From: Cladocopium goreaui
Taxonomy: Eukaryota; Sar; Dinophyceae; Suessiales; Symbiodiniaceae
Direction of reading: 5' to 3'
Length of the DNA stretch: 64,000 nucleotides
NCBI GenBank assembly: GCA_947184155.2
Contig: CAMXCT020000502.1
Span: 1 to 64,000 of the forward strand
The stretch's first letter is position 1; each line of letters starts with the position of its first letter. Positions 29,239 through 49,244 of this stretch are shown piece after piece. The translations under genes and the position numbers were made by a program. A model generated the notes under the pieces. The model saw only the letters and a program-made list of their open reading frames with translations. It was not told the DNA's origin and ran no database searches.

Positions 29239-29847
29239 CACACTAGACAAGAATGGATCATTATATGATCCGGCAGGAACTGAATCCTGAAACATGCAGA
29301 TTAGACACGAAACAATGAAATTAATGATGCATCCTATGAATAATAGAAGTACTTCAGAATGGTCATCGAGTTCAGAATCGCCATCAAAAAGAATAAATAA
29401 ACCAGCAATAATATCATCGGCGATGTCTCGGCGAAGCCTAGCCAATAAAGAACCGTCGGCGACGATGGTGTCGGCGATCATGTAAACGAAAGGTTACAAG
29501 TATGCTTTCTACGTCCTTGCTCTGAGGGAGGTTCTGATGCAACGAAACAAATCGTAAATGACCAAATTGATTCCAGATTGCGAAAACAGTGCAGTGAATT
29601 GAAATTTCAAATACACAACGTGGAGGTTCTTGGGTTGAGCCTCTTCCCATTCCAGTAAAATTGGCAGGTACGTGACAAAGGCGTCCCTTCGTCATATCAC
29701 AGCAAATGATGAAGTGTCTTCGTTGAGTGGTGACTTCATCATTGCTCACCACTCCCCTGCAAATGTGAAAAGATCCCCTGCAATTGTGAAAAGATTAGAA
29801 TCATAGAAGTTTTACATCTGTTCAGATGTTACACACACACACACACC
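29239..29847 (-). repeat. Direct terminal repeat 1 of the 20-kb island (pseudo-LTR candidate)
   Basis: About 608 bp, offset exactly 19,399 bp from 48638-49244, with about five substitutions seen (roughly 99% identity). One end is TTTTACATCTGTTCAGATGTT, a hairpin next to (AC)n; the other is CACACTAGACAAGAATGG next to CACA. It carries two overlapping minus-strand open frames (about 80 codons with a hydrophobic stretch; 104 codons, His/Arg-rich), intact in both copies, but the identity is too high for that to show selection. It has no TG...CA ends, so it is not a classic LTR. Confidence 0.85.
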
Positions 29848-29951
29848 GCGTGTAGCGGGGTTCGATTTTTGGAAGACCATCGCTGCAAATGTCGGCAAGA
29901 TCATTCAAATACAAAAGGCTTTCCGGTGCTAATGTACAGGGCCGCGTTCAG

Positions 29952-30677
29952 TCACTCAGAAGGGAGGTTCGCCTCAGCTTGAAGTGTTTGGATCGCGTCA
30001 CGGAAGCTCATGTCTTCAAGCATCCTCCACGTGTCGCTGATTTCCCCAGATGCCATAGCAGCCCTCAAAGTGATTGAAAGTTGTTGGGCCAGGTCCTGGA
30101 TCTTCGGAGTAAAGCGGGTTGCCTCCGTAGGTGCCATAGTCTCAATGGGGACATTGTGAAAAGGATGATGTCCATGTACTAGAGGGATCTCAAAATGATG
30201 TCGCCAATAATCCGCTGTGCGCAGTGACCACTCCCAGTTGCCCGAAAGACCGTAAAAGTAGTGCTCGGGGTCACGACATTTGGAGAGCCCTGACATGGGG
30301 ATCTCTTCAATGAATAACTCCCTGGTATTGTTGGAGTGGGTAATGATCTTGAATTGGATCTGGTGAACCACGCGGGAAGAGAAGTGAGCACGATGGAGGT
30401 AGTGGTATGTAGGACTTGGCTCCGTCGGAAAAGGGACATCAGGAGGTGCGAAGCCTGAATATGTATCAGAATGGGCCGTAGTTCCAATGTCGGTAGTTGT
30501 ACTGTCAGCTGCCAAAGGTGCCGAAGTGGTCCCGGTAGTAGGGTCAGGAAGGCCCGAATGACATAGTGCAGAAGCCTGGGCGTCTGGTGCTTGATCTGGG
30601 TTGGTGGGAGCGAGTCCACGGTTGGGATTCGAAGGCCAAGCCAAGCCCGCCACGGTAGCGTCTCGTTTACGCTCCAT
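29952..30677 (-). CDS. Hypothetical protein, accessory ORF 9 of the island
   Basis: 241 residues from the ATG at 30677; the frame stays open upstream to an ATG at 30806, but that part is pyrimidine-rich DNA giving Tyr/His/Phe/Leu and looks like leader. The N-terminal 80 residues are Pro/Thr-rich and probably disordered. The middle (RVVHQIQFKIITHSNN ... ELFIEEI) matches the pattern in the neighbouring ORF at 31.7-32.4 kb (TTVHSVFIKKL ... DELWIVERT), suggesting two paralogues. The C-terminus is helical. No known domain recognised. It is the last ORF of the minus row, about 105 bp from the direct repeat. Confidence 0.6.
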   Translation of the reverse strand: MERKRDATVAGLAWPSNPNRGLAPTNPDQAPDAQASALCHSGLPDPTTGTTSAPLAADSTTTDIGTTAHSDTYSGFAPPDVPFPTEPSPTYHYLHRAHFSSRVVHQIQFKIITHSNNTRELFIEEIPMSGLSKCRDPEHYFYGLSGNWEWSLRTADYWRHHFEIPLVHGHHPFHNVPIETMAPTEATRFTPKIQDLAQQLSITLRAAMASGEISDTWRMLEDMSFRDAIQTLQAEANLPSE

Positions 30678-30949
30678 GGGTGAAACGATCAGAAATGCGT
30701 GAAATGGTGCGACAAAGGCTGAGGCATCAGGAAATTGCGAACATAAGCCAAGCCAGAGAATAAAATAATGATAATGATAATAACGATAATAGTGAAGTCC
30801 AGTCATCAATCAAACTGTTCAAGGTTCACGGACAGGGCAAAGCCCAAAGCCTAGCAAGGTGAAAAGCAAAGAATCCTTCGTGTTAATAAAATGTCATAGG
30901 TGCAACGAAAAGGACAGTCGGGCATGGTCTTTTTTGGCTAGTGAGCGTA

Positions 30950-31543
30950 TCAGGGCAGGATCACACCGGGGCTCACTTTGTGGCATCGCAGACGTAGCAC
31001 GAAAGGCTGTGAGGTACCCGGGATGAGCAAAGAGGATTCGATGTAGTTGTACTGTCGGAGTCGCCATTCGGGTCGGTATTCCTCCAAAAGCTGCAGGATC
31101 GTCATATCATTGGGGACTTGGAATGTATCACCTTCCAGGTCGCAATAGCGAAACTCCAAATTCGAAGGGTCAAGTTGGATGTCCCATTGGGTCCTCAATC
31201 TTTTTGAAATACAGAAACGTAGTTCTCCAGTGGGAAGGAGGCCGGCTTCAACTGGTTCCATCTGACGTGACCAGGTGAACAGAGCTTCAAGTTCGTAGCC
31301 ACTAACATTTTTGAAATTTGAACTAGCCAAAGCCATGTAGTGTTCACGGTCAGGTTCGCTGCGATGAGTCAGTTCCTGTAAGGGAGAGTAGTCAATCAAA
31401 ATAAGAACAGGTCGGTTTGGAGGAGGGTTCACGTGACCAGGAAGGCCTCGGGGTCCAGCAAGCCATCCAACATTGCGGGTACCCAGTGGTGTCTCAACCG
31501 TGGATGTAGCGCGATATGGATGGGGACGAGAAGAATGAGCCAT
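30950..31543 (-). CDS. Hypothetical protein, accessory ORF 8 of the island
   Basis: 197 residues from the ATG at 31543, chosen because the upstream open frame has no earlier ATG. After a basic, Pro-rich 50-residue start comes a globular region beginning PVLILIDYSPLQELTH and including WDIQLDPSNLEF, an acidic EGDTFQVPND turn and a C-terminal beta-like LRLRCHKVSPG. The same layout occurs in the ORF at 32635-33306 (PVIFQLDLKPMQQLAV, WSIHLPATDF, VHVQVIPRGHP), so the two are likely distant paralogues. Function unknown; no catalytic motif seen. Confidence 0.65.
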   Translation of the reverse strand: MAHSSRPHPYRATSTVETPLGTRNVGWLAGPRGLPGHVNPPPNRPVLILIDYSPLQELTHRSEPDREHYMALASSNFKNVSGYELEALFTWSRQMEPVEAGLLPTGELRFCISKRLRTQWDIQLDPSNLEFRYCDLEGDTFQVPNDMTILQLLEEYRPEWRLRQYNYIESSLLIPGTSQPFVLRLRCHKVSPGVILP

Positions 31544-31721
31544 GGCGTCGAGTGTCGAGTTTTGAGTATAAAGCGGAAAGCCCAAGCTGCAACATAGAAT
31601 GATAATGACCAAGGAATAAAGCCCAAAAATTGGAAACTGGAGGGAAACGGTGTACCTAGTGAGTAGTCACAAATCGACGTGTAGTCACTGTTCTTTTTCG
31701 ATGCCGACAAATAATGTGGTA

Positions 31722-32412
31722 TTACACACTGGAGTCAGACATATCCATCGGGCCCGTATCGTTCGCATCCAGTGGACCATGTACTTGTTGAGGAGGGACG
31801 GTAGGGCGATTGAGATGTAAGGTACGTTGGCATGTTGCCGGTGGTGAAGAAGGTGGTGTAGATCGCCATGGTGGCCAAAATAAAGAGGTGGTGGTTCCTT
31901 GAGAGTGGTGTTGGGCAGAACGTCCCCAGCATGACTGTAAGATATGGAGTTGGTCCGGTATCGCTTCGTACGGTTGGGAGACATAGACGTTGGAATGTTC
32001 AGGGTGTGGGAGAACAGGAACAGCAGTTGCCGTAGAAGAGGAGGATGATTGGATTGGTACATCATAGCAATTATCGGCGCCAATGGTTAGCCGTGGTACG
32101 TAGGGTAGCACGATCGTTGGTGAGGTGCATGTTCTCCAGAAATGTTTCCACTGGTTTCCACGTTTCAATACCATCAAGTGTCCTTTCCACGATCCAAAGT
32201 TCATCCGGACGAGTAGACAAAGGATAGCTCAGCTTCTTGATGAATACGGAATGGACGGTTGTAGAGGTTGGGATCATCCGCGCTGCCCTGGGAATATACG
32301 ATGCCGAAGTAGGATCATCAGGTGGCAGGTGTGGGACAGGGCCATGTACGGATGTAGGTGAGGAACAGTGTGAGACCAATCGGGCAGCATCATCCGTGTT
32401 GGAGGTCGTCAT
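31722..32412 (-). pseudogene. Hypothetical accessory ORF 7 of the island, frameshifted
   Basis: Starts at the ATG at 32412 (MTTSNTDDAARL) and reads about 105 residues including TTVHSVFIKKL and DELWIVERTLDG. Near 32100 the sensible reading moves by one base into the frame that continues PYVPRLTIGADNCYD and a Ser/Thr/Pro-rich tail to the stop at 31722. The first half resembles the ORF at 29952-30677. The frame is open further up to an ATG at 32571, giving a very hydrophobic leader, but the DNA there is pyrimidine-rich and ends in GGCTTTTTGGCTCCAG, so leader RNA is more likely. Either a single-base lesion or a recoding site. Confidence 0.5.
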
Positions 32413-32634
32413 GTATAGTAGCAATAATATGATATCGAGAAACATTGAACTGGAGCCAAAAAGCCGTGGGGAAAGGTCAATGATGAAGAATCGAACAACG
32501 AGCATCACAATAAGGAAAGATGAGAAGCATGGGAGACAAAAGAAACCCAAAACCGGGGTGAAGGACATCATGACGAGTGTTTTTTCCTTTTCCTCATAGA
32601 CGTGAGCGTCTCCAGGAGCTATCTCAAAGGCTAA

Positions 32635-33306
32635 TCACTCGGCCGCTTTAGTGTATCGGGTGGCCGTGACGAATGGATGCCCACGTGGAATCACTTGAAC
32701 ATGGACAGCGAAGCCTGTGTCTTGTGGATCTGGATGGGGTGTCAGCAACAAAGGTGAACACTCACGGGTCGTGAAGGCATCTAGATGTTGATGAGTTTTC
32801 CATGTCGGGTAGAACCAGTTCAAAACGTCCAGGAGAGAATGAGGGAGGTCGTCAAGCATCTGAGCTCCTTGATCAGTGTCAATCATCATGTAGAAATCTG
32901 TCGCTGGTAGGTGTATCGACCATCGTTGTAGCAGCGTGTCGGTAACCACGGTTTTGAGGTCCGAAACGAAATGACTGCGAGCATAATCCGGGTAGATCAC
33001 CTTGAACGTCTGGAACAGGCTGTCATAGGCGGCCGTGGAGAGGTTGCCCGCGACCTTGGGGGCCAGGATGTTGTAGTATGGGTTGCGGACGGCAAGTTGC
33101 TGCATCGGCTTCAGGTCCAATTGGAAAATAACCGGTCGATGGGGTGTCGAAGGCGGAGTCCGGTTGGGTGGGTGCTGAGATAATGAAGACCCCATAGCGG
33201 AGGACGGTGCCCTTGTTGGAGAGCGTGATCGTCGTGTAGGGGAGATCCTCTCGTGGGACATAGCTCGCAGTTGGCAATAGCGATCCAGGTGAATGCGGAG
33301 AGACAT
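32635..33306 (-). CDS. Hypothetical protein, accessory ORF 6 of the island
   Basis: 223 residues; ATG at 33306, with in-frame ATGs at residues 15 and 38 as alternatives. The N-terminus is basic and Arg/Ser/Pro-rich (SPTRRSRSPTRAPSS). The globular part starts PVIFQLDLKPMQQLAV and shows WSIHLPATDFYMMIDTD and VHVQVIPRGHPF, paralleling the ORF at 30950-31543. No known family recognised. A pyrimidine-rich stretch ending in CGGGCAG lies 50-90 nt upstream, as for a splice acceptor. Confidence 0.65.
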   Translation of the reverse strand: MSLRIHLDRYCQLRAMSHERISPTRRSRSPTRAPSSAMGSSLSQHPPNRTPPSTPHRPVIFQLDLKPMQQLAVRNPYYNILAPKVAGNLSTAAYDSLFQTFKVIYPDYARSHFVSDLKTVVTDTLLQRWSIHLPATDFYMMIDTDQGAQMLDDLPHSLLDVLNWFYPTWKTHQHLDAFTTRECSPLLLTPHPDPQDTGFAVHVQVIPRGHPFVTATRYTKAAE

Positions 33307-33489
33307 AGTAAATGGCTGGCGGGTTGTATGATATGAAAGTTCAAAGTTTCAATGGAGCAACACTGCCCGAGTTTGTGAAGGTCAAAAAATGTAAGAACGA
33401 AAAAACCCTTAAAGACGAAGAAAGTTGGGTTGTGGAGCTATAATGCAGTGCCGCAGGCCAGCTTTTTCTTGGTTCGCATATGTCGTTGG

Positions 33490-34122
33490 TCAGCCAAGTT
33501 TGTCTTTAATCTTATTCCACATAGAGCGAACATCTTCCTCGGTATTGCCCATCTTGGTCGAGATCACACGCCATGAAAATCGAGACTTCTCGTCCGCCTT
33601 CAAAGTGCGTAGTTTCTGTTTGTCTTCAGAAGTCCAGAGTGACAGTGGGCTCGAGGAGCGGGATCGGGATTGGTCAAGTCGGCGACGACGTTTTGCAGGC
33701 GCTTTGGGAGCTGATTTGGCTTTCTGTTTGCGGGTCGGCGGTGAAGGTGTTCTGGTAGAAAGCTTCGAGGGTGCAGGTAGGACTTCGGGTGACGGAGCGG
33801 CAACGTGGTGGTGTGGTTCAGGGAGATGGGTTTCCAAGAGTTCATCCATAAGTGCCTCGTCCTCCACGATATCCGGCGACGGGATGTGGGCATTGTCAAT
33901 GAAGTCGTTGGTCTGGTCCGAGTAATGTGGTCGTAGCCCATCAGGTTGATTCCATACGTCTGTGCTGGGAAGAGGGGTAGGTTCAATGTTGGGAATGAGA
34001 GTGGGTGGAAGTAGCGCCATTGCTCGATGTAGTAGAAGGTAAGCATGGTGGACATCATGAAGAAATTGAAGAAATACTGGTTCTTGAATCGGAATTGACG
34101 TAGTAGGAGACGAGGAAGCCAT
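33490..34122 (-). CDS. SANT/Myb-like DNA-binding protein
   Basis: 210 residues from the first ATG (34122). The N-terminal 110 residues are Pro- and acid-rich, then comes a Lys/Arg-rich stretch (KQKAKSAPKAPAKRRRR), a likely nuclear-localisation signal. The last 49 residues form a SANT/Myb-type helix-turn-helix: tryptophans at about 163, 184 and 202, the acidic first helix (SEDKQKLRTLK), and the GNTEEDVRSMWNKIKDK recognition helix. The spacing fits trihelix/SANT domains of transposase-associated and chromatin proteins. It lies 170 bp downstream of the RT gene on the same strand, so it may bind the element's own DNA or target chromatin. Family confidence is good; role is inference. Confidence 0.72.
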   Translation of the reverse strand: MASSSPTTSIPIQEPVFLQFLHDVHHAYLLLHRAMALLPPTLIPNIEPTPLPSTDVWNQPDGLRPHYSDQTNDFIDNAHIPSPDIVEDEALMDELLETHLPEPHHHVAAPSPEVLPAPSKLSTRTPSPPTRKQKAKSAPKAPAKRRRRLDQSRSRSSSPLSLWTSEDKQKLRTLKADEKSRFSWRVISTKMGNTEEDVRSMWNKIKDKLG

Positions 34123-34294
34123 CACGAAACGTCGAATGTGGGCCAAGAAGTAAATGAAGCCGAGTTTGAGGGTGAGCCAGCTGAGAACCAATACTCCAAT
34201 ATCAAATACATTAACGTGTGGCCCGAATAGGTGAAACGTTCAGCAGGATGTGAACAATGAGACGTAAGCGCAAGCGGCAGGGCGGTTTTGGATT

Positions 34295-37012
34295 TTACCA
34301 CAATGAGGAAACGTGCAAATATTGACGGATCGGCTTGGCAGCAGTAGCTAAATCGGACTCGGTAAAACCTGCAGTTCTGTACAAACGGTGCAATGCGGCA
34401 AAACCTCGCGTTCGTTCGTGTGCAGGGTGCGCACATTTGGCGACCAGAAATAGTCGTGAAACAAAACCCGAAAGTTGGACGGCCAGAGGTGATGCGGAGA
34501 ATGGCGCCATGACCTGGTTGAAGTCGCGCGGAGGGCTGTAGCGAAGGGCAAAGGGCTCGAACTCGATGCAAAAGCCCAAGAACTCCTGGTCCGGTTCCGT
34601 TTCCAAAATGATGGGGTGACCGTAGAACTCCGGGTGAAGGAAATTGGCGAAGCAGATTTCGTAGTCCCAGGAGGGATCCGACAAGCACAGTCTGTTGTCC
34701 ACATAGCGAAGGAGGCGAGCTGTAAGGTCCATGGTGCTGAGGGTGGTGCGGTAGGTTCGGTACCAGATTTCTTCAGAGAGTGCGACAACCATCATGCACA
34801 ATGCCGGACTCAGTGGGGAGCCCATGGGGGATCCACGGATTTGTTCAAAAACAGTAGTGCCAATGGAAAATTGGGTCATCTTCACAGACATAAGGATGAT
34901 GCGTTCAATGTCCCGAATGAAGATCTTCCTGGTCACATTGAGTGTACGGCACGTGCGGCCTTTGACTACATCGCCTGTGGTGTTGCCCGGAGTTGCCTTC
35001 ACGGAGATAATCTCGTCAGGGTCGGTACTCATGAGAGTCGAGAGGAACTGCAAGGTCAGTCGCCAGCTAGCGATGAAGCGGTCAGTGTCGATGCTTGTGA
35101 AAAAACCCGCAAGATCTTGGTTGTGTATTCGGGGAGTAGGGAGCGAATCAAAGTCGGTGTCCTTGAGGAGCTTGATGAGATCAAATACATCACCCCTTGC
35201 CAGGTTGTGGGGAAACGCTTGGGGTAGGAGGTTGTAGATCAGTTTGGCGGTGCAGTTCAACATGGGTCGGAAAGGTGCCGTGAAGAAGCTGACAATGGGT
35301 CGCCCAGCCTTAAACTGTTTCTTCCGTTTGGGGAGAACGTAGGCATTCGGTAGGTCTCGTCCAGCACCAAGTGCCCATGGGTATGCTTTGCCAAATTGAT
35401 GATTGATCTCGGCGATGGTCTTCTCGATGATGTCATTTGGGCTGTGCTCCAATTTTCGAAATACCAACGGGTCGGCGAAGGTGGTGGTGAGGCACTGGAA
35501 GTAGAGTACGGGGCAGTAGATTCGTAAGGATGTAGCTCGCTTGTCCTCGTTGTGGAAGACGGCTTCTGGAAAGAGACGTTTGAAGCGTCCGATGTCTTTG
35601 TGTGTGATGTGATTGTGGAGGGTGTTGTAGTGGGACTGAATAGAGCGATGCCAAAGCTCATCAATATGGGTCTTTTGTAATGAAGGGAGTGAGTTCCGGG
35701 TAGTCCACGTCCGCAGAGCAAGGCGAAGGGATGTCTGGATTTCTTTGGAAGGTGGGAAGATTTTGTTTTGAAGCGAACCCGTCGCAATGGATGTGTGTGG
35801 GCCGTCATCGAAATGTAGGTTGTCGCCGTCCAGGACCAAGTGGTGATCAGGATGGGGATCATGAAGAGCATGAGGTCGCAAGGCGTCACAGGCACACTTT
35901 GGGGTTTCGCCATCAGCCCATTTGGTAGCGGCTTCTTTGTGGTTGCACAAGCTGTCCATAACCGAGGGGAACTTTGTGAAGACAATCCCGGTGGAAGGAG
36001 TCTGCAATGTGGTGTTGTAGCATCGAGTTCGATGAACGTGGGAAACGAGCAGCTGTCGAAGGTCCCGGGTCCAGTTGGGGCCTAGTAACCAAGGTGCACG
36101 AAGAGGAACCGGTTTCCTGACTCGTTTGGCCTTCCAGAAGGTCAAGGCTCGGTCAATGGCGTACGACCTCTGAGGTTCGCCTAGGTTGTTGGCAAGACGT
36201 CGAATAAAATAGCATCCTTGGGCCCCAATTTCATTGGATCGGAGTTTCTTCTCCATGTGGAAGCGTCGGACGGAGTTACTGCCCAAATCCTGAATGATCT
36301 CCCAGAGTTGTACTCGTCGATGGAAAAGAGGACTATGAAGAGCATGTCGAACATGATGGGGTGTAGATCGCCAACGGAGTTTCCGCCACAGAGAAAATGC
36401 TCCAAATTGTCGGGAGTCGGAAAATTTGGTACGCGCTATGAGTCCCTTTCGGCAATTGAAAAACTGGTAAATGAACGGAGTGTTTAATCGAGGTTGCCAC
36501 AATTGAATTAAGGCTTGTTCCAAAGCCCAAAAGTTGGATTTATTGGTGTAGATCGGACAAACAAACCACATCCAGAAATTGTCGAATCTGCACCAAAACC
36601 GTAAGGCGACTTCGGCTAACACGAATTTGTTTTGTTGCACTTGCAGAAATTTCCGATAGCGAGAGTGTTCACGGTCCAAAACAAAAGAAGAAGTGGAACC
36701 CACATAAAACTTAGGTTGAAAGTTAGCAATGTGGCAAAAGCGAATATACACCGCCTGAGGGTGCTTGAAACATTGGAGGGCGACTGACAAGTCGTCCCAC
36801 GACCTGCAAAAGAAAATACTCTGCATCGGAGTGCCTTTGAGCAAGGCTTGGAGTTTCGGATTGGCTCGTGGATGTAATAACACATATTGGCCCATCAGTA
36901 CAGTTTGAAGCATCCGAAAAGCAAAAAAGACATCAACAGAAGGGGACAAAGTGAAGGGGGTCAATAGTGCAAGGACAAGAATACAGGAATGAGCCACGGC
37001 CAAAGTTCGCAT
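34295..37012 (-). CDS. Penelope-like reverse transcriptase with N-terminal GIY-YIG endonuclease
   Basis: 905 residues from the ATG at 37012 (the longer frame starts with TTG). A GIY-YIG nuclease lies near residues 88-180: VYI (88-90), FYVGST (102-107), catalytic-type Arg 114, His 116, Glu 165 (ALEQALI) and the LN pair at 176-177. A linker with a CxC motif (CAC, 373-375) and several His follows. The RT has RPIVS (571-575), motif A aspartate at about 633 (DLAGFFTSI), motif B GSPMGSPLSP (727-736), motif C YVDN (770-773) and a downstream LETEPDQEFLGF. Nuclease-CxC-RT is the permuted order of Chlamys/Naiad Penelope-like elements; canonical Penelope has the nuclease at the C-terminus. Motif C has Asn in place of the second Asp: either a lineage trait or a defect. 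A hydrophobic stretch at residues 3-26 is unexplained. Target-primed reverse transcription is inferred from the family. Confidence 0.85.
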   Translation of the reverse strand: MRTLAVAHSCILVLALLTPFTLSPSVDVFFAFRMLQTVLMGQYVLLHPRANPKLQALLKGTPMQSIFFCRSWDDLSVALQCFKHPQAVYIRFCHIANFQPKFYVGSTSSFVLDREHSRYRKFLQVQQNKFVLAEVALRFWCRFDNFWMWFVCPIYTNKSNFWALEQALIQLWQPRLNTPFIYQFFNCRKGLIARTKFSDSRQFGAFSLWRKLRWRSTPHHVRHALHSPLFHRRVQLWEIIQDLGSNSVRRFHMEKKLRSNEIGAQGCYFIRRLANNLGEPQRSYAIDRALTFWKAKRVRKPVPLRAPWLLGPNWTRDLRQLLVSHVHRTRCYNTTLQTPSTGIVFTKFPSVMDSLCNHKEAATKWADGETPKCACDALRPHALHDPHPDHHLVLDGDNLHFDDGPHTSIATGSLQNKIFPPSKEIQTSLRLALRTWTTRNSLPSLQKTHIDELWHRSIQSHYNTLHNHITHKDIGRFKRLFPEAVFHNEDKRATSLRIYCPVLYFQCLTTTFADPLVFRKLEHSPNDIIEKTIAEINHQFGKAYPWALGAGRDLPNAYVLPKRKKQFKAGRPIVSFFTAPFRPMLNCTAKLIYNLLPQAFPHNLARGDVFDLIKLLKDTDFDSLPTPRIHNQDLAGFFTSIDTDRFIASWRLTLQFLSTLMSTDPDEIISVKATPGNTTGDVVKGRTCRTLNVTRKIFIRDIERIILMSVKMTQFSIGTTVFEQIRGSPMGSPLSPALCMMVVALSEEIWYRTYRTTLSTMDLTARLLRYVDNRLCLSDPSWDYEICFANFLHPEFYGHPIILETEPDQEFLGFCIEFEPFALRYSPPRDFNQVMAPFSASPLAVQLSGFVSRLFLVAKCAHPAHERTRGFAALHRLYRTAGFTESDLATAAKPIRQYLHVSSLW

Positions 37013-37057
37013 AATATTGGCTGCTTTTGAGCCTGGTGATTTCAAAAACGTTGCTAG

Positions 37058-38362
37058 TCAGGAGTGCATCAATAACGCCACAGTCATGACCTTGAGGACG
37101 ACTTCATCCGTAGTGGCCCCTTTATGCTTGCAGGGATCAATGCCCATAGCCACGCTTGCGCGTTGGATGGTTTTGGAGGCATCATCGGGTTGGTTTTGCC
37201 ACAATTCATTGACCTTCTCCAGGTTCTTCTCCAGGATGTCTTGCTTGGGCTGTGGTAATTTCAGGTCTTTCAACCACTTTTTGTATTGGGTATCCGTCAA
37301 TGATGAGGGTTGATTGTCAACGAGCCAAGAGTTCACGGATCCCGGAGAAATAAGTAGAACCGAAGGGTCAAAGGTCGTAGAAGCTGCAGGTTGTCCTTGA
37401 AGTGCACGTCCAATCGGTGTCGTGGCTGGTGTAGACCCTTGAGGTGCCGTAGTCTGTGAAGTACTGGCGGCCGATTTTACCTTGGCCAGTTCAGCTTCCA
37501 GTTCAAGAATGCGTTGTTGGCTCGCCACGTCCGCGGAGGGTTGAGCTGGGAGCCAAGATTGGAGAAGTTGAGCGACGTCCTTGGCCATGTTTTGAGTGGC
37601 TTCCTTCTGATTGAGACATTGGCCTGCTGAGCAAGCTCGAAAGGTGGCAAGTTTGTCCAAATCCACATTGCGGGTGCGTAGTTGTGATGCCAATTCAGCC
37701 ACAAATACTGTAGTGCCTATGTTGTCAAAAGGGAGGACGAAGGTTTCTCTTCCGTATGCAACACGACGGAGCCAGGTGTTGTGTAAGCCCTGGTACAAGA
37801 ACTTCCAGAGTGGGACTTGTAAAGGATCCATACCTTCAATGTCTTTGTAGCTTGAAAACCTGCTCTGTCGGATTCTGGAGGGGAAATCCAAACCATTGAT
37901 CTTGTTGGAGTCGTGGAAGTCGACATCAGGTTTCCATTGCTCCACTGGTGGGATTTCAATTGGTCTGCATGTATACCCTTCGTTGACAGTGGAACTTGCT
38001 CCCGGGGATGACATAGGCCTCGGCGATCTCGGTGTAAAAGGATGACGTTGAGGTGCAAAGTTGGCATTGTTGGGAGGTGTCTGGGAACACGGAGGCGGTG
38101 TAGGTGGAAAAGGTGCCGTAGGTGGAGTCCATGGTGGGCGTGTTGGGAACGATGGAGATGTAGGTGGCGGAGGCGGTATTCCGGACGGGTTCCAGAAAGG
38201 TCGATGGGTCGCCATTGCATAGTGCATCGGGCCACGGAACGCAGGTACTGCTTGGTGCCATCCATGTTGATGACGGGGAGGTGTGCGAGAGCGATCCGGC
38301 TGGGAAGGAGGAATTCCGTTCACGTCAGGGCTGAACTGGGAGATCAGGTCCTGGGACGCCAT
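37058..38362 (-). CDS. Pro-rich protein with C-terminal helical domain, accessory ORF 3 of the island
   Basis: 435 residues from the ATG at 38362 (MASQDLISQ). The frame is open to an ATG at 38998, which would add 212 residues and overlap the end of the upstream gene; I prefer the shorter start, but a separate small domain in the extension (LVLDIRHITPDLVGELF) cannot be excluded. Layout: Pro/His-rich disordered N-terminus, a middle folded part (SRFSSYKDIEGMDPLQVPLW), a coiled-coil segment (QQRILELEAELAKVKSA) and a C-terminal SSLTDTQYKKWLKDLKLP ... EKVNELWQNQP helical region. It ends 46 bp before the RT start codon. A gag-like RNA-binding or structural role is a guess. Confidence 0.6.
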   Translation of the reverse strand: MASQDLISQFSPDVNGIPPSQPDRSRTPPRHQHGWHQAVPAFRGPMHYAMATHRPFWNPSGIPPPPPTSPSFPTRPPWTPPTAPFPPTPPPCSQTPPNNANFAPQRHPFTPRSPRPMSSPGASSTVNEGYTCRPIEIPPVEQWKPDVDFHDSNKINGLDFPSRIRQSRFSSYKDIEGMDPLQVPLWKFLYQGLHNTWLRRVAYGRETFVLPFDNIGTTVFVAELASQLRTRNVDLDKLATFRACSAGQCLNQKEATQNMAKDVAQLLQSWLPAQPSADVASQQRILELEAELAKVKSAASTSQTTAPQGSTPATTPIGRALQGQPAASTTFDPSVLLISPGSVNSWLVDNQPSSLTDTQYKKWLKDLKLPQPKQDILEKNLEKVNELWQNQPDDASKTIQRASVAMGIDPCKHKGATTDEVVLKVMTVALLMHS

Positions 38363-38711
38363 GATGTAGACGGGGCCACGAGATAATAGGTCAAAATAAG
38401 CTCGAACTGCCGACTGAAAGCTGCGGTGAAGTGTCAAGGTGAGACGAGGATGGTATGCGATTGAAACGGTGTGAAACATGATACGTGGTCCCAGTGTGTG
38501 AAACGTAAAGTGAAATACGAATCTGGCGCAAGGTTCAAATATCATGAGCATGCAGCAGTTCACAAACCTTTTGAGGGAAGAAGTGGCATCAATACCGAAT
38601 GTCGGGAGAAGCATTGTTACTCCAAAAAGATCGGGCAGGGCCACTAGGCTCACTGTATCGCTGTCGTAGAATAGTCGATACTTGTTCCGGTACTCCTCAG
38701 AGGTAAAGAGT

Positions 38712-40820
38712 TCACCAACGAGATCTGGAGTGATATGTCGAATGTCGAGAACGAGGTTGGCCTTCACGGTGCTGATCTCGAGAATGGCCTTCGTGATAGG
38801 AGGAACGGCGATCTCGACGACTGTAGGTTGAGTTGTCCCAAGAAGCATTGTCGTGCCAAGATCGGCGAGCATGATCTCGAGAGCCAGACGCGGTGGTCTC
38901 GTGGTGGCCAGTTGTGTCTCGAGAGTCGTCTGGAGGTGGCTCCGAAGGTTCTGGTGCGTCGGCAGGAGGGTCAGGTCGTACTGGACGTGCATGATCATCA
39001 GGAGGTTCCGTGGGTGGATTTGTCTCCGCTGCCTGGTGTGTGATCAAGCCCGGGAAAACCGAGTGAGTGGAGGCAACGTAGCATATGGATGCGGCGCTGG
39101 AGTTCATAGCCGTTGCATTGTCTTTGCCCTTGGCGATGCCCGCGAGGTTGCACAAGCGTTGAATTTGGTCATTTCCTCCAGCTAGGGCGCGGATGCATTT
39201 GGGTGAGCGACAAATGGCCAGTAGGCCAGATGGGTTTTGTCCTTTCCCTATGCGATAGAGCTGAGAGGTACAAATCTTGACAGCATAGCCTGGTAGGTTG
39301 TCGATGTCAGCGATCTCAGAGGACATACCGAAGAACCCGTAACATGGGTATTGAGTTGGCATGCCGGCTTCGTTTTTTGTCCAAGTTGCCGGGCGGATGC
39401 AGTCTTCCGCGAGAATTTTGGCAACTGATTCCCAACTCGTTTTGTGGTAGATCAGGTAGGTGCCCATGTGTTCGCCGTGATAGATCGGTTTCTTCCTCAA
39501 TCCAGTGGGGACCGTGATGGTCAGCAGGTTCTCTGGCTCGATGTAGAATGCTTGGGTTTGCCTCGCAAGCTCGATGTCCAGTAAGTTGGATTGTGCAAAG
39601 GCCCTGGCAATGTTCTTGACGGTGGCTTGGCTTGCTTTGATATAAATACGTTGGTTGTTGACGGTGCGATATGGTTGAGCCAACTGGTGGAACATCTCGT
39701 CAACGAATTGGTTGAAGAGCTGCAAGATGGCCGGGGTCAGTGATTGGCGTAGGGGCACTGTATGGTCGGGGTCAAGCTCAGTCAAGCAGCGGACCCTAAG
39801 GGGATCATTGGCTGCCTCAACCATTTCACTGAGGTCGATGTCATTCGTGTCGAATTTTGATATCGAAATTGCATCTGTCACCTCAGAATTTTCACTGTCA
39901 CCGTCAGGGACGCGGAAGGACACAGCGCCAAGTGGTGCTGAAGTGTGGGCTGGTGGGTTGGTAGTTGGTTCAGGTGGCGGTGGATCGGCAGGAGAGTTGG
40001 GTCGAGCAGTGTTGTGGTGGTAGTTGTCGGTGTAATGGCTGTCGTTCCATGTGCCCCAGGTGTCATCAGCGTCGGGAGTGGGGATGTAGGCCGGATTGGA
40101 TGGGTTTGCAGCTGGTCGAAGTACGACTTCACGGCCTCTGGATCGGTGACGTGGTGTCGTGGAACGTGGTCTTGGGTGAGATCGATGACGTCGAGGAACC
40201 ACGGGAGAGCGGCGTCTTGGCGGTGACCGTCGTCTGTATGGAGATGGGGTTCTGCGGTCCTTGGCGTGTTTCGTGGATGACCGATAACGAGGAAGAGGAG
40301 AACGAGGTCGAACTGCACGTTGGGGAGAATAGCGATGATGATGGGAATGTACAGAAGGTCGGTGGGAACGTGATCTTGGAGTCCTGGATCGTGGTCGGCG
40401 TGTTGGTGATGGTGGAGCATGTAGTTGGTGAGGAGGAGCGATGGCTGGAGCTTGGATGATGCGAGGGTCCGGAACGTCAGGTTCGGTGGGTCTGGCTTTC
40501 GGTGCAGGTGGAGGCATGGCGATAGGTGGTGGTGCTGTTGTGGGTAGTGGTGTCGGTGGAATAGGGTTCGGTGGAGGTCCATCGTGTTGGAGGAGTAGCT
40601 GACGTTGTTCTTGGGCTCGTTGAGAATCCATGATCAATCGTTGCTGAGCTTGAATAAGTCGAACCGATTCCGCAAGTTGCTGTGCAGTGGAGCCCAGCGC
40701 TGCAAGTTCAGGTGAAACGGATGAAGGCTTTCGGAGCTGACCGACGTGGTCTGTCCGTTTTCTTGTCAGAGCGAAGCCTGGGAGCCGCCTTAACTGCTGG
40801 GGCATGTGGTGGAGGTTCAT
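38712..40820 (-). CDS. RS/Pro-rich protein with possible ADP-ribosyltransferase-like domain
   Basis: 702 residues: Gln-rich helical start (ELAALGSTAQQLAESVR), Pro-rich 80-135, Arg/Ser-Pro-rich 140-230 (RRRSPPRRRSP), acidic linker, a folded domain at about 320-590 and an RS-type tail. In the domain, YLIYHKTSWESVAKIL (His 459) followed by YPCYGFFGMS (about 491-500) recalls the His-then-Tyr/Phe layout of the ADP-ribosyltransferase/KptA fold. The third catalytic residue is not obvious, so this is only a hypothesis. The upstream Pro-rich frame (40708-41292) overlaps it in another frame and probably belongs to the same protein. RS domains suggest RNA or splicing-factor contacts. Confidence 0.6.
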   Translation of the reverse strand: MNLHHMPQQLRRLPGFALTRKRTDHVGQLRKPSSVSPELAALGSTAQQLAESVRLIQAQQRLIMDSQRAQEQRQLLLQHDGPPPNPIPPTPLPTTAPPPIAMPPPAPKARPTEPDVPDPRIIQAPAIAPPHQLHAPPSPTRRPRSRTPRSRSHRPSVHSHHHRYSPQRAVRPRSPLPRYRSSTKHAKDRRTPSPYRRRSPPRRRSPVVPRRHRSHPRPRSTTPRHRSRGREVVLRPAANPSNPAYIPTPDADDTWGTWNDSHYTDNYHHNTARPNSPADPPPPEPTTNPPAHTSAPLGAVSFRVPDGDSENSEVTDAISISKFDTNDIDLSEMVEAANDPLRVRCLTELDPDHTVPLRQSLTPAILQLFNQFVDEMFHQLAQPYRTVNNQRIYIKASQATVKNIARAFAQSNLLDIELARQTQAFYIEPENLLTITVPTGLRKKPIYHGEHMGTYLIYHKTSWESVAKILAEDCIRPATWTKNEAGMPTQYPCYGFFGMSSEIADIDNLPGYAVKICTSQLYRIGKGQNPSGLLAICRSPKCIRALAGGNDQIQRLCNLAGIAKGKDNATAMNSSAASICYVASTHSVFPGLITHQAAETNPPTEPPDDHARPVRPDPPADAPEPSEPPPDDSRDTTGHHETTASGSRDHARRSWHDNASWDNSTYSRRDRRSSYHEGHSRDQHREGQPRSRHSTYHSRSRW

Positions 40821-41292
40821 CTAGAGGGACCATCGATGCGTCCGTCTGTAGTGGAGGTTGAATGTGGTGAGGTGGGTATGGAGAACTCGGCAAAGGTGTC
40901 GGTGGCGTAGTCGATGTAGGTGGTGTAGTCGATGTAGGTGATGGAGCCGGAGGAGAATGCCAAGTGGGTGGAGCGGTGGGTGCCGTAGGAGTCGGAAAAG
41001 TCGATGGAGCGGTGTGCACCAGAGTGGTTTCAGGGGCCAAAGGTGTGGGCATGGTGGGTACGAGTTGTGGGCCTGATACTGCATGAGGAGCCGAAGTCAA
41101 TGAGGTGAATGGCAACGATGCTGGGGCTGATGCAGACGGCATGAGCGAAGCTGAGGAAGACCATGTAGGATGCAATGGCGAGGGATGTCCAAATAGATGT
41201 GCGTTCTGCGATGATTGCTGCCACGTCGAAGATGGGTTCGTAGGCTGCGGTGGAGCAGGCCATGACGTCGGAGGAGTGGTCCACGGATACAT
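40708..41292 (-). CDS. Pro/Thr/Ser-rich protein, accessory ORF 1 of the island
   Basis: 194 residues from the ATG at 41292, almost wholly Pro, Ser, Thr and Ala with a basic end (RSDKKTDRPRRSAPK). It overlaps the next frame by 113 bp with a one-base offset, and the basic end plus the next frame's SSVSPELAALG region read like one continuous protein, so a single-base lesion or a recoding site near 40.75 kb is likely. Low complexity prevents family assignment. It is the first ORF of the minus row, facing the LINE across a roughly 690-bp gap. Confidence 0.5.
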   Translation of the reverse strand: MYPWTTPPTSWPAPPQPTNPSSTWQQSSQNAHLFGHPSPLHPTWSSSASLMPSASAPASLPFTSLTSAPHAVSGPQLVPTMPTPLAPETTLVHTAPSTFPTPTAPTAPPTWHSPPAPSPTSTTPPTSTTPPTPLPSSPYPPHHIQPPLQTDASMVPLDEPPPHAPAVKAAPRLRSDKKTDRPRRSAPKAFIRFT

Positions 41293-41978
41293 CGCTCACG
41301 AAGAATAATGAAAAATAATGAAAAGCGGCTCAATGATGGATCGCAACCTCCACGTGGGCGAGCCGCGGGCACTTACACTCGGCCGCATTTCAGAGCCTCA
41401 TTTTGATACTTGGTTGGGCAAATCACACGGTACTGGCACTGAGTGCGGTTTCTCACTTCATGACATGTGATAGTTGAATGCAGTGAATGAACAAAGCGAT
41501 GCGCGACGCGGTCTGCGGATTATTAAGACATAGGGAGCACGAGTGTATGCTAATCCCTCCCCGACGTTTTTTGAGTCGGGAGTCTCTTGTGACGTTGATG
41601 CTGTGGTAATTTTTAGGGTCTTGTTTTAGGTATAGGCAGGAGCGGAATTGATCCATCACGCCGTCTGGCCCAAACCTTGGGGCGGTTGGGTTTCGCTGTT
41701 CTGTACGGTGGAACTCTCCCTGGGGCGTACGGGCTAGATCGGAACGGGTGTTAACCGTGTGGTCGGCGGTTAATTACCTTGGGTTTTCTTACTCGGTTTT
41801 CCCTAGGTGGTTTCAGACCCAAAGGTACCGGCACTGGTACAATTTGGTGTGTTCGAGGGCTGATCTAGTGTACGCACGTGGAAAGGTTGGTACATTGTCC
41901 TAGGGCGGGGGATCCGTGTCGGGTTCGGGTTTTCTTTGCTCTCCATTCTCCTCTTGTGTGACCGTACGCACTGCCGGT
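41293..41978. promoter_or_regulatory. Divergent intergenic region between minus ORF row and plus LINE
   Basis: About 690 bp without a convincing gene, separating the start of the minus-strand row from the plus-strand LINE polymerase. It contains CCCTCCCCGACG/GAGTCGGGAG words able to pair (near 41555-41583) and GC-rich stretches. It may be the LINE 5' UTR plus the upstream region of the minus row; no promoter motif can be named. Confidence 0.35.
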
Positions 41979-45100: not shown

Positions 45101-46449
45101 CTATAGGGCATGTTGCACGAATGTCAGTTGATGCCCCGCAGAAACAATTACTCTTTGGATGGATTACCGATGCTGGGGCCAAACAACATTGTCCATACAA
45201 ACAGGCTCAATGGTTGAACGCATGTATCCGACAAGCCAACATATCCGAAATCGATTGGTACCGCTTAGCGCAAGATCGGACCAAATGGCACAATCTTGTT
45301 ATGGCTGCGTACCCTAAAGAACAAGTATCTAAAGAGAGGGAACGCGAACTTGATGCATGGCGCATAGGAGTACCCATCCCCGACTGGGCGCAACCGCACC
45401 TAGAGCACGGTGAACGTAATTATGAGGATAGTGATAATGAATTGGGGGAGCGTAGGCGTGGGGGAGATGTTAGAAGGGTGGACCCAAGGACCTACGGACA
45501 ACGTCCCCGTCAAAACAGACGACGCGCTAGGGATGATGGTCGCCTCACCTGCCCGGTTTGTCAGACAGTGTTTACCAAACATAATCAGCTGGCCTTCCAT
45601 TATGAGGCAGAACATTCTATTTGCGACCCCAACTTAAGTACAGTGCAGTCCTTCCACTGTGTCAAGTGTATGCAAACCTTTCGCCGGGTTGGGACCTACA
45701 AGAGCCACACATGCCCAGCCACAAAGCTTTTAGATCGTTTTAGTTGTATTGACAGCGAGGCGAGAGTGTGTGGCCCAGACAAGACCCTCTCTGCACCCCT
45801 TCCTACATGGTTTCACATCTACACGGATGGATCGGGGGGAAGCAGTGGTTCAGATGAAGCACCTCTCAATGCGGGGTGGGGAGTGGCAGTATTTGACCAA
45901 CACAATCCTGGCATGGACACTGCTTGGAGAGCGGCCCTGTATGGTCCGGTTAATGTAGCACCTTATGATCCAATTTGGTTAGGTGCTAGGGTGAAGTCCA
46001 ATAACACTGGTGAAGTTAGTGCCATCGGGGAAGCTTGTCGGTACCTTCTACAGGTTCATACGCTGTTACCGCCAAACCACCCTCGCCAGGCCACTATATA
46101 TTACGATTCCACATATGCATATGGGGCAGTTACACGTCTGAATAAATCCAAGGACAATGTGGAACTTGTTGATACTGTCGCCACCTTAGTTGATGCAGTT
46201 CGTCGACACTTCACACTGGATTTCCAACATGTACGTGCACATACGGACATATATGGAAATGAAGCAGCTGACAGATTAGCAGCCCGAGGGGCGGCTGGCC
46301 GCATCTCCCCTCATGCGCAAACCTGGATCCAACGACCCCCCGGACCAATGGGTACTGACCCACCCCCCCTGCCCCAAAGCGTGCACCTCGCATGCGTCGT
46401 CCTGCCGCTGCCAACCCCGGCCCACGGGCTGGACGATGGCCCCTTTTGA
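45095..46449 (+). pseudogene. LINE-type polymerase, part 3: zinc fingers and RNase H
   Basis: Begins with IGHVARMSVDAPQKQ, a conserved LINE segment. Two C2H2-like fingers follow (CPVCQTVFTKHNQLAFH and CVKCMQTFRRVGTYKSH), then RNase H: IYTDGSGGS (Asp), NNTGEVSAIGEA (Glu), IYYDSTYAY (Asp) and RAHTDIYGNEAADRLA (His and Asp). The catalytic set is complete. Stop at 46449. A third apparent -1 shift leads into the next segment. Removal of the RNA strand after target-primed synthesis is the expected role. Confidence 0.85.
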
Positions 46450-46667
46450 TGTGCGACTCGTGTAACACACAATTTCGATCCTGTGACCTCCCACAACACC
46501 AGCCTGATTGTAGGGGGCCTGACCCGGCAAACCGTACATGTCAATATTGTGCCAAAATCTTGGAAAGTGTACAGTCCCGTAAAAACCATGAAAGATATAC
46601 TCATTCGCAGGAAGCTCTACGAGATGGACTCATCACAACATTACCCAAACGCCGGACAGGCAGATAG
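46392..46667 (+). pseudogene. LINE C-terminal zinc-finger segment
   Basis: 91 codons overlapping the RNase H frame by 58 bp. Two finger-like units: CDSCNTQF ... HQPDC and CQYCAKILESVQSRKNH. It is probably the natural C-terminus of the LINE protein, separated by a frameshift, though an independent small protein is possible. Confidence 0.55.
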
Positions 46668-46701
46668 GGATGCTGAATGCTAGTCCAGTGTCACTTTCGA
46701 T

Positions 46702-47496
46702 ATGGCTTTTGTCATCACCTCGCCCTTCCCCCGCAGCCATCATGAACATCAAAGTAGTGATTCTGTGTTTCACCCTCCTGGTGTTGTCCTCATGGCTCGT
46801 GTTCCCAGAAACCCAGCCAACTCTGACACGGGCAGAAAACGAAAATTGGACGATCTCGATCGTCGCCTCACCCAAGCAGAAAACCAGCTCACACGGCACA
46901 ACGATCGGTTGGACAACGTTGAGTTGCGCCTTGAGTTGGATCAAAGTTATCGGTTTATACGTGTGGAGGCGTGTAAAGGACTTGAAGAAATGTTCGCCAA
47001 GGTGGTAACAGGCGAAGTATCCAAAAGTGACATACGTGATGTGGTCGGTCAAACACTCACCCGTGAAATCAGGGAGGTCCTTGAACGCCAACATGATGAA
47101 GGCGCGCTCCAACAAGCATCCCAAACCCATGGCAACAACAGGAGGAAATGGCCCACCGCTGTACAACGCAAGTTGGTTTTTGATGGGCTCAACTTATGCC
47201 CCCTCATCGAATGGTGCTCCAAAGCTGGAAACAGTGCCTATTCAGTCAGGCTCACCCCGGGGGAACCGTCCCGCCTTGCACATGAAGCCATCCGCACCAC
47301 ACTCAACTGGTCCCTGTATATCTACAGCAAATTCGCAAGCGAGGGGGAATCTAAACTACAAGTTTACCCCGACCGTGGCCCCAAACAGCGAGCCAAAGGC
47401 AAAGGAAAAGGTCAAGGCAAAGGAAAACCAGGTGGAGCCAAAGGTAACGGCAAAGGTGGCAAAGGGAAACGAGACCGAGACAGCCAGGAGGGTTAA
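46702..47496 (+). CDS. Coiled-coil, basic-tailed gag-like protein 3' of the LINE
   Basis: 264 residues from the ATG at 46702. A heptad-patterned coiled coil spans about 45-95 (KLDDLDRRLTQAENQLTRH), followed by helical segments (VVGQTLTREIREVLERQ), a central folded part (WPTAVQRKLVFDGLNLCPLI) and a Gly/Lys tail (KGKGKGQGKGKPGGAKG) suited to binding nucleic acid. The layout recalls LINE ORF1 proteins, but it lies downstream rather than upstream of the polymerase. It may be a displaced ORF1, the start of a following copy, or an unrelated protein. Same strand as the LINE. Confidence 0.6.
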   Translation: MAFVITSPFPRSHHEHQSSDSVFHPPGVVLMARVPRNPANSDTGRKRKLDDLDRRLTQAENQLTRHNDRLDNVELRLELDQSYRFIRVEACKGLEEMFAKVVTGEVSKSDIRDVVGQTLTREIREVLERQHDEGALQQASQTHGNNRRKWPTAVQRKLVFDGLNLCPLIEWCSKAGNSAYSVRLTPGEPSRLAHEAIRTTLNWSLYIYSKFASEGESKLQVYPDRGPKQRAKGKGKGQGKGKPGGAKGNGKGGKGKRDRDSQEG

Positions 47497-48171
47497 ATCC
47501 CGGCGGCCGCCGCCGTTAGCCAAGGCAGGATGCGCAGACCAAACAACCCAAACCAAAAAAAAAAAGGAAACAATCTCAGATGCTACCCACTTTTGTTTTT
47601 AGGTGATGTAAGACTTAGTCGTAACCCCCTATCGGCACAACGCAGAACAGGTGGGCGGACCTCCCAAGTGGAACCCCCCAAGGTCGACACTTGCTTATTG
47701 GGCAAGTGTCAGGTTTCTGCCGTGCCGTAGGGCTAACACACGACCGTTCCCCCTCAACGCGTTCCCCAAGTGTTGGTACTACTCAGGGAAAGCTATACGT
47801 AAACCTTTTTTATTTGCTCTCACTCCCTTCTTTGGTCTTTTCGGTTGCTTTCTTTCTTGTGTGTGTTCGGATCCTTCCCAGGTCATGTTCCTGGTTATGA
47901 AGTTTTACATTTTGCTCGAAGTGTCTATGACCTACTAGCATAGGGTTCCACTGAATGGTGCTACCAACCTTTCCTGTTTCATATGTGTTTCACCCAGCCC
48001 TCACGAAATGGGACCACTTACGGAGATTCATCAGTGCGAGGTCGACGCGCCCATGGTATTTCGACTGTGGATGGGGAACCTCAAAAATGTGGTGGCTACC
48101 TTCGTCGCCCACATCATCATCATCATCATCATCAAAATAATGAAAATGCAAAGACAGGATTCAGTTCCTAG
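47497..48171. other. Probable LINE 3' region, non-coding
   Basis: Contains an A11 run at 47557, unique sequence and a (CAT)n tract at 48110-48135 that may be the simple-repeat tail of the LINE. No supported gene. Confidence 0.45.
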
Positions 48172-48528
48172 ACCTACTGTTCGTGCAATTGTGCCACAAC
48201 AGGCCCGTGTTCCAGTCAGCCACGAAGGCATAAAACGGCATTCAAGTTCAACCGAATTAAGTGCACAATATGTTTAACCTCACCAGACAACCATCAAAAA
48301 GAAGAATACCACACCTGCAAGACGTGGGCCTGCCTGGTCCATTTTCATGTAATGTTGCAAAATGTCGCTGTGAAAGTGCTGCAGAATAAGAGGTTTCTGA
48401 ATGTTCGATACGGCTTCTCGCTGCAAAGAATGCAATTCACAAAGGATCGCAAGGGACAGCCGGAACGGCAGGACATCTCAAAAAAGTTGCAGAACAGAAA
48501 GGCCAACTGTTGCGATTTACTTAGATGA
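48172..48528 (+). pseudogene. Cys-rich zinc-ribbon-like open frame without a start codon
   Basis: 118 open codons after a TAG, with no ATG before the middle. Contains KCTICLTSPDN ... EYHTCKTWACLVHFH, a Cys2 ... Cys/Cys/His pattern that vaguely recalls the C-terminal zinc ring of piggyBac-type transposases, then a basic helical tail (RKGQPERQDISKKLQ). It could be a fragment or an exon; no core DDE domain is nearby. The assignment is weak. Confidence 0.3.
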
Positions 48529-48599
48529 ATTACTAAATTAAAATGTGTAAATTCGGCAGTCAAAACAGTCATCACTCACCCTAAAAAGGGTTGCCTCAA

Positions 48600-48626
48600 A
48601 TGGCTCCATGGCACCATGTCGGAGCC
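48600..48626. repeat. Hairpin before direct terminal repeat 2
   Basis: GGCTCC and GGAGCC enclose ATGG and CCAT, a nested inverted repeat about 12 bp before the start of the second terminal repeat. Confidence 0.55.
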
Positions 48627-48637
48627 ACCATGGAAAT

Positions 48638-49244
48638 CACACTAGACAAGAATGGATCATTATATGATCCGGCAGGAACTGAATCCTGAAACATGCAGAT
48701 TAGACACGAAACAATGAAATTAATGATGCATCCTATGAATAATAGAAGTACTTCAGAATGGTCATCGAGTTCAGAATCGCCATCAAAAAGAATAAATAAA
48801 CCAGAAATAATATCATCGGCGATGTCTCGGCGAAGCCTAGCCAATAAAGAACCGTCGGCGACGATGGTGTCGGCGATCATGTAAACGAAATGTTACAAGT
48901 ATGCTTTCTACGTCCTTGCTCTGAGGGAGGTTCTGATGCAACGAAACAAATCGTAAATGACCAAATTGATTCCAGATTGCGAAAACAGTGCAGTGAATTG
49001 AAATTTCAAATACACAACGTGGAGGTTCTTGGGTTGAGCCTCTTCCCATTCCAGTAAAATTGGCAGGTACGTGACAAAGGCGTCCCTTCGTCATATCACA
49101 GCAAATGATGAAGTGTCTTCGTTGGGTGGTGACTTCATCATTGCTCACCACTCCCCTGCAAATGTGAAAAGATCCCCTGCAATTGTAAAAAGATTAGAAT
49201 CATAGAAGTTTTACATCTGTTCAGATGTTACACACACACACACC
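48638..49244 (-). repeat. Direct terminal repeat 2 of the 20-kb island (pseudo-LTR candidate)
   Basis: Partner of 29239-29847 in the same orientation. Ends with the TTTTACATCTGTTCAGATGTT hairpin and (AC)n, then passes directly into the CACA minisatellite. Confidence 0.85.

Follow-up and report, generated by a model that had tools for sequence, protein, structure and literature searches.

The island at positions 29,239 to 49,244 of a 64,000-nucleotide stretch of the Cladocopium goreaui genome (contig CAMXCT020000502.1 of assembly GCA_947184155.2; the whole stretch is referred to below as the window) is a single copy of a 13.2-kb retroelement that is abundant in this dinoflagellate genome, and a younger long interspersed nuclear element (LINE) interrupts this copy. 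We consider it probable that this retroelement is a new, polycistronic and endonuclease-bearing kind of Penelope-like element; membership of the Penelope class, as judged from the sequence, is likely but not proven. An earlier note had described the island as one 20-kb Penelope-like element with pseudo-long terminal repeats (pseudo-LTRs) and about nine extra open reading frames (ORFs). Its observations are confirmed in part, and its interpretation is supported as regards a multi-ORF, LTR-flanked reverse transcriptase (RT) element but not as regards the size.

The island is enclosed by direct repeats at 29239-29844 and 48638-49243, which align without gaps at 602 of 606 positions and are offset by 19,399 bp, close to the 608 bp, 99% identity and identical offset given in the earlier note, and it interrupts a CA-rich minisatellite (CACA in that note). 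Trimmed to the termini common to other copies, the repeats become LTRs of 587 bp. The right third of the island is foreign to the element. Plus-strand ORFs at 41.9-46.4 kb match Exo_endo_phos (E 3e-4), RVT_1 (E 2e-11) and RNase_H (E 2e-12), and because the segment 41325-48133 is bordered by a 13-bp duplication, has a CAT-repeat tail and meets an empty site in contig C3687, where the equivalents of window positions 41324 and 48134 are contiguous and the 13-mer is single, it is read as a LINE nested in a minus-strand element. The duplication was matched in length by none of 300 shuffled flank pairs. Once the LINE is removed the element measures 13,183 bp in the window copy. A single 20-kb giant element that includes the plus-strand ORFs would fit the 19.4 kb that the window LTRs enclose, but it is refuted by the LINE domains, tail and duplication, by the LINE-free site in the other copy, and by the absence of any 19.4-kb interval among 48 same-strand intervals from the first 100 LTR ends. 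Within the LINE, the endonuclease, RT and RNase H frames lie in overlapping ORFs, and a basic, KGKG-rich ORF (46702-47496) lies downstream of these enzymes, which would be an unusual order if it is an ORF1. Elsewhere in the window, at 1951-6691, a 2.37-kb segment stands twice in direct tandem (1951-4319 and 4318-6691) with 99.6% identity. The boundaries of the island's parts are as follows.

48643..49229, minus strand: 5' LTR, 587 bp, 583/587 identical to the 3' LTR
48147..48642, minus strand: interior 5' end of the element, beginning GTGTGATTTCCATGGTGG, upstream of ORF AB
48134..48146, no strand: right target-site duplication of the LINE, 13 bp, AAAATAATGAAAA
41325..48133, plus strand: nested LINE, 6.8 kb, with Exo_endo_phos, RT, RNase H and CAT-repeat tail
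41312..41324, no strand: left target-site duplication of the LINE, 13 bp, AAAATAATGAAAA
29831..29875, minus strand: interior 3' end, GC-rich stem-loop (shorter stem in the window) then (GT)n, adjoining the 3' LTR
29244..29830, minus strand: 3' LTR, 587 bp, AACATCTGAACAGATGT palindrome to CATTCTTGTCTA, outer end in the (GT)n/(CA)n minisatellite

The element is laid out as LTR, GTGTG, eight genes (AB, C, RT, D, E, F, G and H), GC-rich stem-loop, (GT)n and LTR. Its minus-strand ORFs are closely packed from 41292 down to 29952 and include an RT ORF of 916 amino acids (aa), which bears out the dense same-strand row first noticed. The extra ORFs are indeed many, but their number comes to seven genes besides the RT, one of which is split in two and another of which (F) is interrupted in the window. 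The reference for the intact row is copy C3687a, 13,282 bp long, which has eight ORFs in the order given, AB being a single ORF of 873 aa; the window copy lacks about 40 bp near 40726, which leaves AB in two halves. ORF F is likewise one frame in C3687a, an ORF of 280 aa (the 228 aa from its ATG were used for the selection estimates below). The N-terminal half of AB is proline/SR-rich and is followed by an additional C-terminal domain. Paralogy links E with G (z=14) and F with H (z=5.6), which suggests that an E-F pair gave rise to G-H by duplication. Searches of the scanned accessory ORFs against Pfam, NCBIfam and PHROGs returned no relatives beyond a weak Myb-like match in D, and the ORFs scanned against these databases yielded no viral hallmark gene. 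The accessory proteins probably serve the RT by binding RNA or as structural components.

38712..41292, minus strand: ORF AB, one 873-aa ORF in C3687a, split in the window copy
37058..38362, minus strand: ORF C, proline-rich, about 434 aa counted from an ATG at 38362, with a short coiled-coil-like stretch by eye
34295..36913, minus strand: RT ORF, 872 aa from ATG, 916 aa from TTG
36482..36754, minus strand: putative GIY-YIG-like domain, N-terminal in the RT ORF, VYI..FYVGST..R..ALEQALIQLWQPRLN
33490..34122, minus strand: ORF D, 210 aa, with a C-terminal Myb-like stretch (Pfam E 0.006, below cut-off)
32635..33306, minus strand: ORF E, 223 aa, paralogue of G
31722..32412, minus strand: ORF F, interrupted in the window copy, paralogue of H
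30950..31543, minus strand: ORF G, 197 aa from ATG, paralogue of E
29952..30677, minus strand: ORF H, 241 aa from ATG, paralogue of F

A domain of AB at 39500-39020 (YHKTSWESVAKILAEDCIRP...YPCYGFFG) is by eye slightly like ADP-ribosyltransferase or tRNA 2'-phosphotransferase motifs, and had no database match.

That the row belongs to a repeated unit is evident from the rest of the genome, which was searched as an assembly of 1,165,616,438 bp. The RT ORF gave 1,869 first-look candidates, and the 50 that were scored are all full length and 95-100% identical, five of them carrying a stop; these copies lie within contigs of up to 1.49 Mb. The 3' end of the LTR has 1,542 exact matches and a 33-mer across the junction of LTR and interior has 550, short units (see below) included. 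The 48 same-strand neighbour intervals comprise 16 of 12,313-12,764 bp (median 12,569), 23 of 976-1,244 bp, three below 900 bp and six others. The full-length unit is thus uniform, the window interval being 12,577 bp after subtraction of the LINE and one duplication, and if the sampled rate, 16 full-length intervals to every 100 LTR ends, is extrapolated, the genome has about 250 full units. The first copy in C3687, where elements stand head-to-tail, matches window positions 29749-41324 at 92.7-96.0% and 48134-48697 at 85.6%; a second copy there, with a 3.9-kb insertion, and one in C5918 match the element partially. The C5918 match stops at window position 38910, with 4.3 kb unmatched beyond it and no (GT)n at that end, and this looks like a 5'-truncated copy. 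Ten further copies, taken from the top RT matches, were probed at the predicted LTR positions. The start of the 3' LTR was present in all ten, its end in nine (the tenth stretch has N) and a complete 5' LTR in eight, so that both LTRs lie near the predicted distance in eight of the ten, one with a 500-bp insertion in its 3' LTR; in the other two the 5' LTR is missing at the expected place. The earlier note had proposed a search for copies with the same ORF order and repeat ends, and such copies exist: the neighbouring ORFs are kept wherever they were read (one full and two partial further copies), and the paired LTRs and the 12.3-12.8 kb intervals (16/48) supply the ends. Copies C4394 and C4279 share a common 3' flank and differ in their 5' flanks and 5' LTRs, which could reflect a recombinant or an assembly join.

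LTRs do occur without the ORFs, as the earlier note had considered for an unrelated independent repeat, but in short units that belong to the element's own family. Twenty of the 23 short units of about 1-1.2 kb were read, and in these the interior begins, and the LTRs end, as in the full element; without its genes, they are non-autonomous. At least two of eight copies have such a unit directly upstream of the 5' LTR. Together with the direct LTRs of the window and the head-to-tail elements of C3687, this agrees with the pseudo-LTRs and the tandem or partly tandem layout of Penelope-like elements. The short units end in differing GC-rich stem-loops and form at least two subfamilies. The idea that transposition yields mainly solo LTRs was not adopted, only three of the 48 intervals being shorter than 900 bp, and no diverged autonomous copy was seen by eye in the ORF list of one stretch downstream of C2712.

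The ratio of non-synonymous to synonymous substitution (dN/dS) is below 1 in all eight ORFs. For the RT ORF the median is 0.081 across 120 pairs of 16 copies other than the window copy, which remain from 20 loci after removal of three with a stop and of the shorter window copy. For the individual ORFs, C3687a was compared with three other copies, and C, RT, D, E, F and G together span 0.05-0.21 (C 0.14-0.16; D 0.09-0.21; E 0.11-0.19; F 0.13-0.20; G 0.13-0.16). AB spans 0.22-0.53, with only 65 codons in the comparison with C5918, and H 0.31-0.62.

The RT core lies at about 35600-34450, where the motifs RPIVS, FFTSID, GSPMGSPLSP, RYVDN and FLGF are visible by eye. The Pfam RVT_1 profile finds all 14 RT copies compared (best E 0.0058, under the curated cut-off), and the best NCBIfam match of the RT ORF is to a group II RT (E 0.006). 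Pfam GIY-YIG (PF01541), searched up to E 10, is found in 11 of the 14 copies with a best E of 0.05, again below its cut-off. When 31 windows of the ORF, from a set without the three RT loci that carry a stop, were compared by hhalign with Escherichia coli YhbQ and UvrC (62 comparisons), the six best matches were all to UvrC, at the E...N end, with E values of 0.006-0.011 and probabilities of 4-6%. The GIY-YIG motif residues are conserved among the 14 copies, but this says little because these copies are 96-99% identical. Searches of solved structures with the RT ORF, its RT part, its nuclease part and the AB domain gave nothing credible beyond some chance-level matches, and no relative was confirmed among viral contigs (RT, part of AB, and C), genome contigs (RT), or phages and plasmids (RT, by tblastn). 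The motifs and profiles point, consistently but weakly, to an RT with an N-terminal GIY-YIG-like nuclease, which would be the element's only recognisable enzyme. Of the N-terminal GIY-YIG Penelope-like RT proposed earlier, the multi-ORF setting holds, the order of the domains would hold if the upstream one is GIY-YIG, and the assignments themselves draw on motifs and weak profiles.

The LTRs begin AACATC and end TTGTCTA, running from AACATCTGAACAGATGT to CATTCTTGTCTA in the sense direction with the same termini in other copies, and are followed by GTGTGT at 735 of the 1,542 LTR ends, by GTGTG and another base at 730 (mostly the join of LTR and interior) and by neither at 77. Outer ends thus lie in (GT)n in 735 of at most 812 cases, and in each of the 31 flanks that were read the first six bases or more are GT repeat (30 counted by script, the remaining one judged by eye). 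The palindrome at the 5' end of the LTR and the stem-loop at the 3' end of the interior show a small number of compensatory changes, in few and selected sequences: the former was counted on 11 distinct LTR starts, without the solo LTR of C190, and the latter, as an illustration, on six hand-picked forms, without the short stems of the window and C4394 and without the differing GC-rich ends of most short units. No Rfam family reaches its gathering score in the window, and a search of 48130-49300 at E up to 10 gave six chance-level matches. The two LTRs of an element are alike, at 98.4-99.8% in eight of ten elements, at 97.35% apart from the 500-bp insertion in a ninth and at 88.7% in the tenth. 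Between copies, the median distance is 0.222 for the LTR and 0.037 for the RT ORF with 1.5 kb on each side, and the two distances are uncorrelated (r = 0.04 over 66 non-independent pairs of 12 copies, the 3' LTR of C4279 with its 500-bp insertion being omitted). We infer that both LTRs of an element change together and without regard to the RT region, and that one LTR, sometimes borrowed from another member of the family, would be copied to both ends at transposition.

Given that dinoflagellates use spliced-leader trans-splicing, the gene row is most simply read as one polycistronic transcript that would be processed into mRNAs of a single gene each. The assembly has 172 exact matches to the 21-base spliced leader of dinoflagellates and none to its reversed control, as expected of a dinoflagellate host. 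The spacers are T-richer than the ORFs (T 0.30-0.37 against 0.23). The eight genes are probably transcribed together, the common RNA being cut and joined to the spliced leader within the T-rich spacers. A relict spliced leader upstream of ORF F was considered and rejected, since the window holds two one-mismatch matches, as many as in 14 of 100 shuffles, and the site differs in C3687a.

Insertion would most likely proceed as follows. The nuclease would nick (GT)n/(CA)n tracts, and the CA-rich 3' end exposed there would pair with the (GU)n beside the LTR end in the element's RNA, priming reverse transcription. The LTR-proximal stem-loops, with (GT)n, may mark the start and the end of synthesis, so that each new unit would be bounded by (GT)n and would have the same LTR at both ends, like Penelope elements with pseudo-LTRs. 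The short LTR units without genes would be moved in trans. Whether these features amount to a new class, defined by a Penelope-lineage RT with an upstream GIY-YIG domain, an eight-gene, virus-like and trans-spliced operon, insertion by (GT)n microhomology at both ends, short units driven in trans and LTRs swapped together as a cassette, is a more tentative matter, to which we give somewhat less than even weight.

Full copies with two matching LTRs resemble LTR retrotransposons, and the alternative that this is a genuine LTR retrotransposon from a lineage not yet described, using tRNA-type priming, strand transfer and integrase-like insertion and not Penelope-type target priming, has to be weighed. 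Near-identical LTR pairs (nine of ten at 97.3-99.8%, the tenth at 88.7%) combined with a tight full length are what strand transfer would produce, and LTRs that change pairwise while the RT region stays alike suit it as well. We nevertheless hold this explanation to be unlikely, since integrase, aspartic protease and RNase H found no match in the ten minus-strand ORFs of the window searched with Pfam (seven of them also with NCBIfam and PHROGs), the LTR ends are not TG...CA, the outer ends lie in (GT)n (the same 735 of at most 812), the C5918 copy looks 5'-truncated and an upstream GIY-YIG-like domain is a Penelope trait. Much less probable still is that host genes or a viral gene cluster are carried between Penelope pseudo-LTRs and are not the element's own. 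There is precedent in the host genes moved by rotifer pseudo-LTRs (PMC3846280), and the scanned accessory ORFs are without database relatives save the weak Myb-like match; but the copies read repeat this gene row, the LTR sample contains further intervals of its length, dN/dS is below 1 in every ORF and the scanned ORFs hold no viral hallmark gene.

A polycistronic Penelope-like retroelement remains the reading that we prefer, and a number of results weigh against it besides the resemblance to LTR retrotransposons. The profile matches to RT and GIY-YIG all fall well short of the curated cut-offs; TAP_C, an unrelated family, matches the RT part in 10 of 14 copies (best E 0.011); the catalytic box (34740-34680) is YVDN and not YxDD/YVDD, invariantly so in the 14 aligned copies; the RT profile had no match among solved structures and was not linked by hhalign to the RT of the window's LINE. 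In the window copy the nuclease part has no GIY-YIG match, only TMEM37 (E 0.05), and YhbQ is absent from the 12 best of the 62 hhalign results. No hammerhead was found by Rfam (E up to 10, 48130-49300) or by a core-motif scan of both strands at 29.0-49.4 kb. Target-site duplications are invisible, because (GT)n targets hide them, and covariation in the two stem structures is slight, pairs changed on both sides being equalled in 174 of 500 shuffles for the LTR and 49 of 500 for the interior. Selection on AB and H is less clear, because their dN/dS reaches 0.53 and 0.62 between the two C3687 copies. Polycistronic expression, finally, is called rare in dinoflagellates in a review (PMC11453091).

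Within the literature searched, whose scope was mostly without subscription journals, no title suggested a Penelope-like element in a dinoflagellate or in Symbiodiniaceae, "Penelope" in PMC6722697 being an author name. A 2025 study of Ectocarpus reports Chlamys elements and says that Penelope-like elements were previously unreported in TSAR (telonemids, stramenopiles, alveolates and Rhizaria; PMC12477816). If our reading is true, this Penelope-like element would, within that literature, be the first from an alveolate, and a nuclease-bearing, eight-gene dinoflagellate element would extend the class to alveolates and offer a second route to large size. With at least 50 near-identical RT copies, and some 250 full units by extrapolation, it would be a tractable case for the upkeep of many genes by a retroelement, and it bears on how one transcript yields eight proteins and on how pseudo-LTRs arise. 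Its (GT)n habit may also help to explain the repeat structure of dinoflagellate genomes.

Hammerhead ribozymes are found in many Penelope pseudo-LTRs, though not universally. The Chlamys and Naiad elements, which Craig et al. reportedly described in 2021, are said to have a GIY-YIG domain upstream of the RT, pseudo-LTRs and insertion into CA-type microsatellites. By these traits the present element resembles them, having a putative GIY-YIG-like domain before the RT in one ORF, pseudo-LTRs and CA-repeat insertion, whereas its 13.2 kb and eight genes in place of one main ORF, near-uniform length, YVDN box and want of a detected hammerhead set it apart. Penelope-like elements in general are described as compact, with one or two ORFs in 4-6 kb, Terminons excepted (PMC6431247). 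In the same paper the Terminons of bdelloid rotifers reach up to 40 kb, attach to telomeric repeats via a 3' hammerhead structure and have no fused endonuclease, with a stand-alone GIY-YIG-like ORF possible among their accessory genes. The present element is like them in its many accessory ORFs beside an RT which in Terminons is of the Penelope class, and unlike them in that its nuclease-like domain appears, on weak profile matches, to be fused, in that it targets (GT)n, and in that its RT copies lie inside contigs. Internal initiation of reverse transcription in an AC-rich stem-loop has also been reported (PMC11167929). Pen1-Pen6 of Adineta vaga, endonuclease-containing Penelope elements, have direct pseudo-LTRs with a 5' palindrome, solo pseudo-LTRs, cargo between pseudo-LTRs and 5'-truncated copies (PMC3846280). 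Our element shares the direct LTRs and the palindrome at the LTR 5' end, and it is like them too in its solo LTRs, its added genes between the LTRs and a copy that looks 5'-truncated. The Adineta elements differ from it in having one ORF, the RT before the endonuclease, low copy number, often inverted pseudo-LTRs and visible target duplications (same source).

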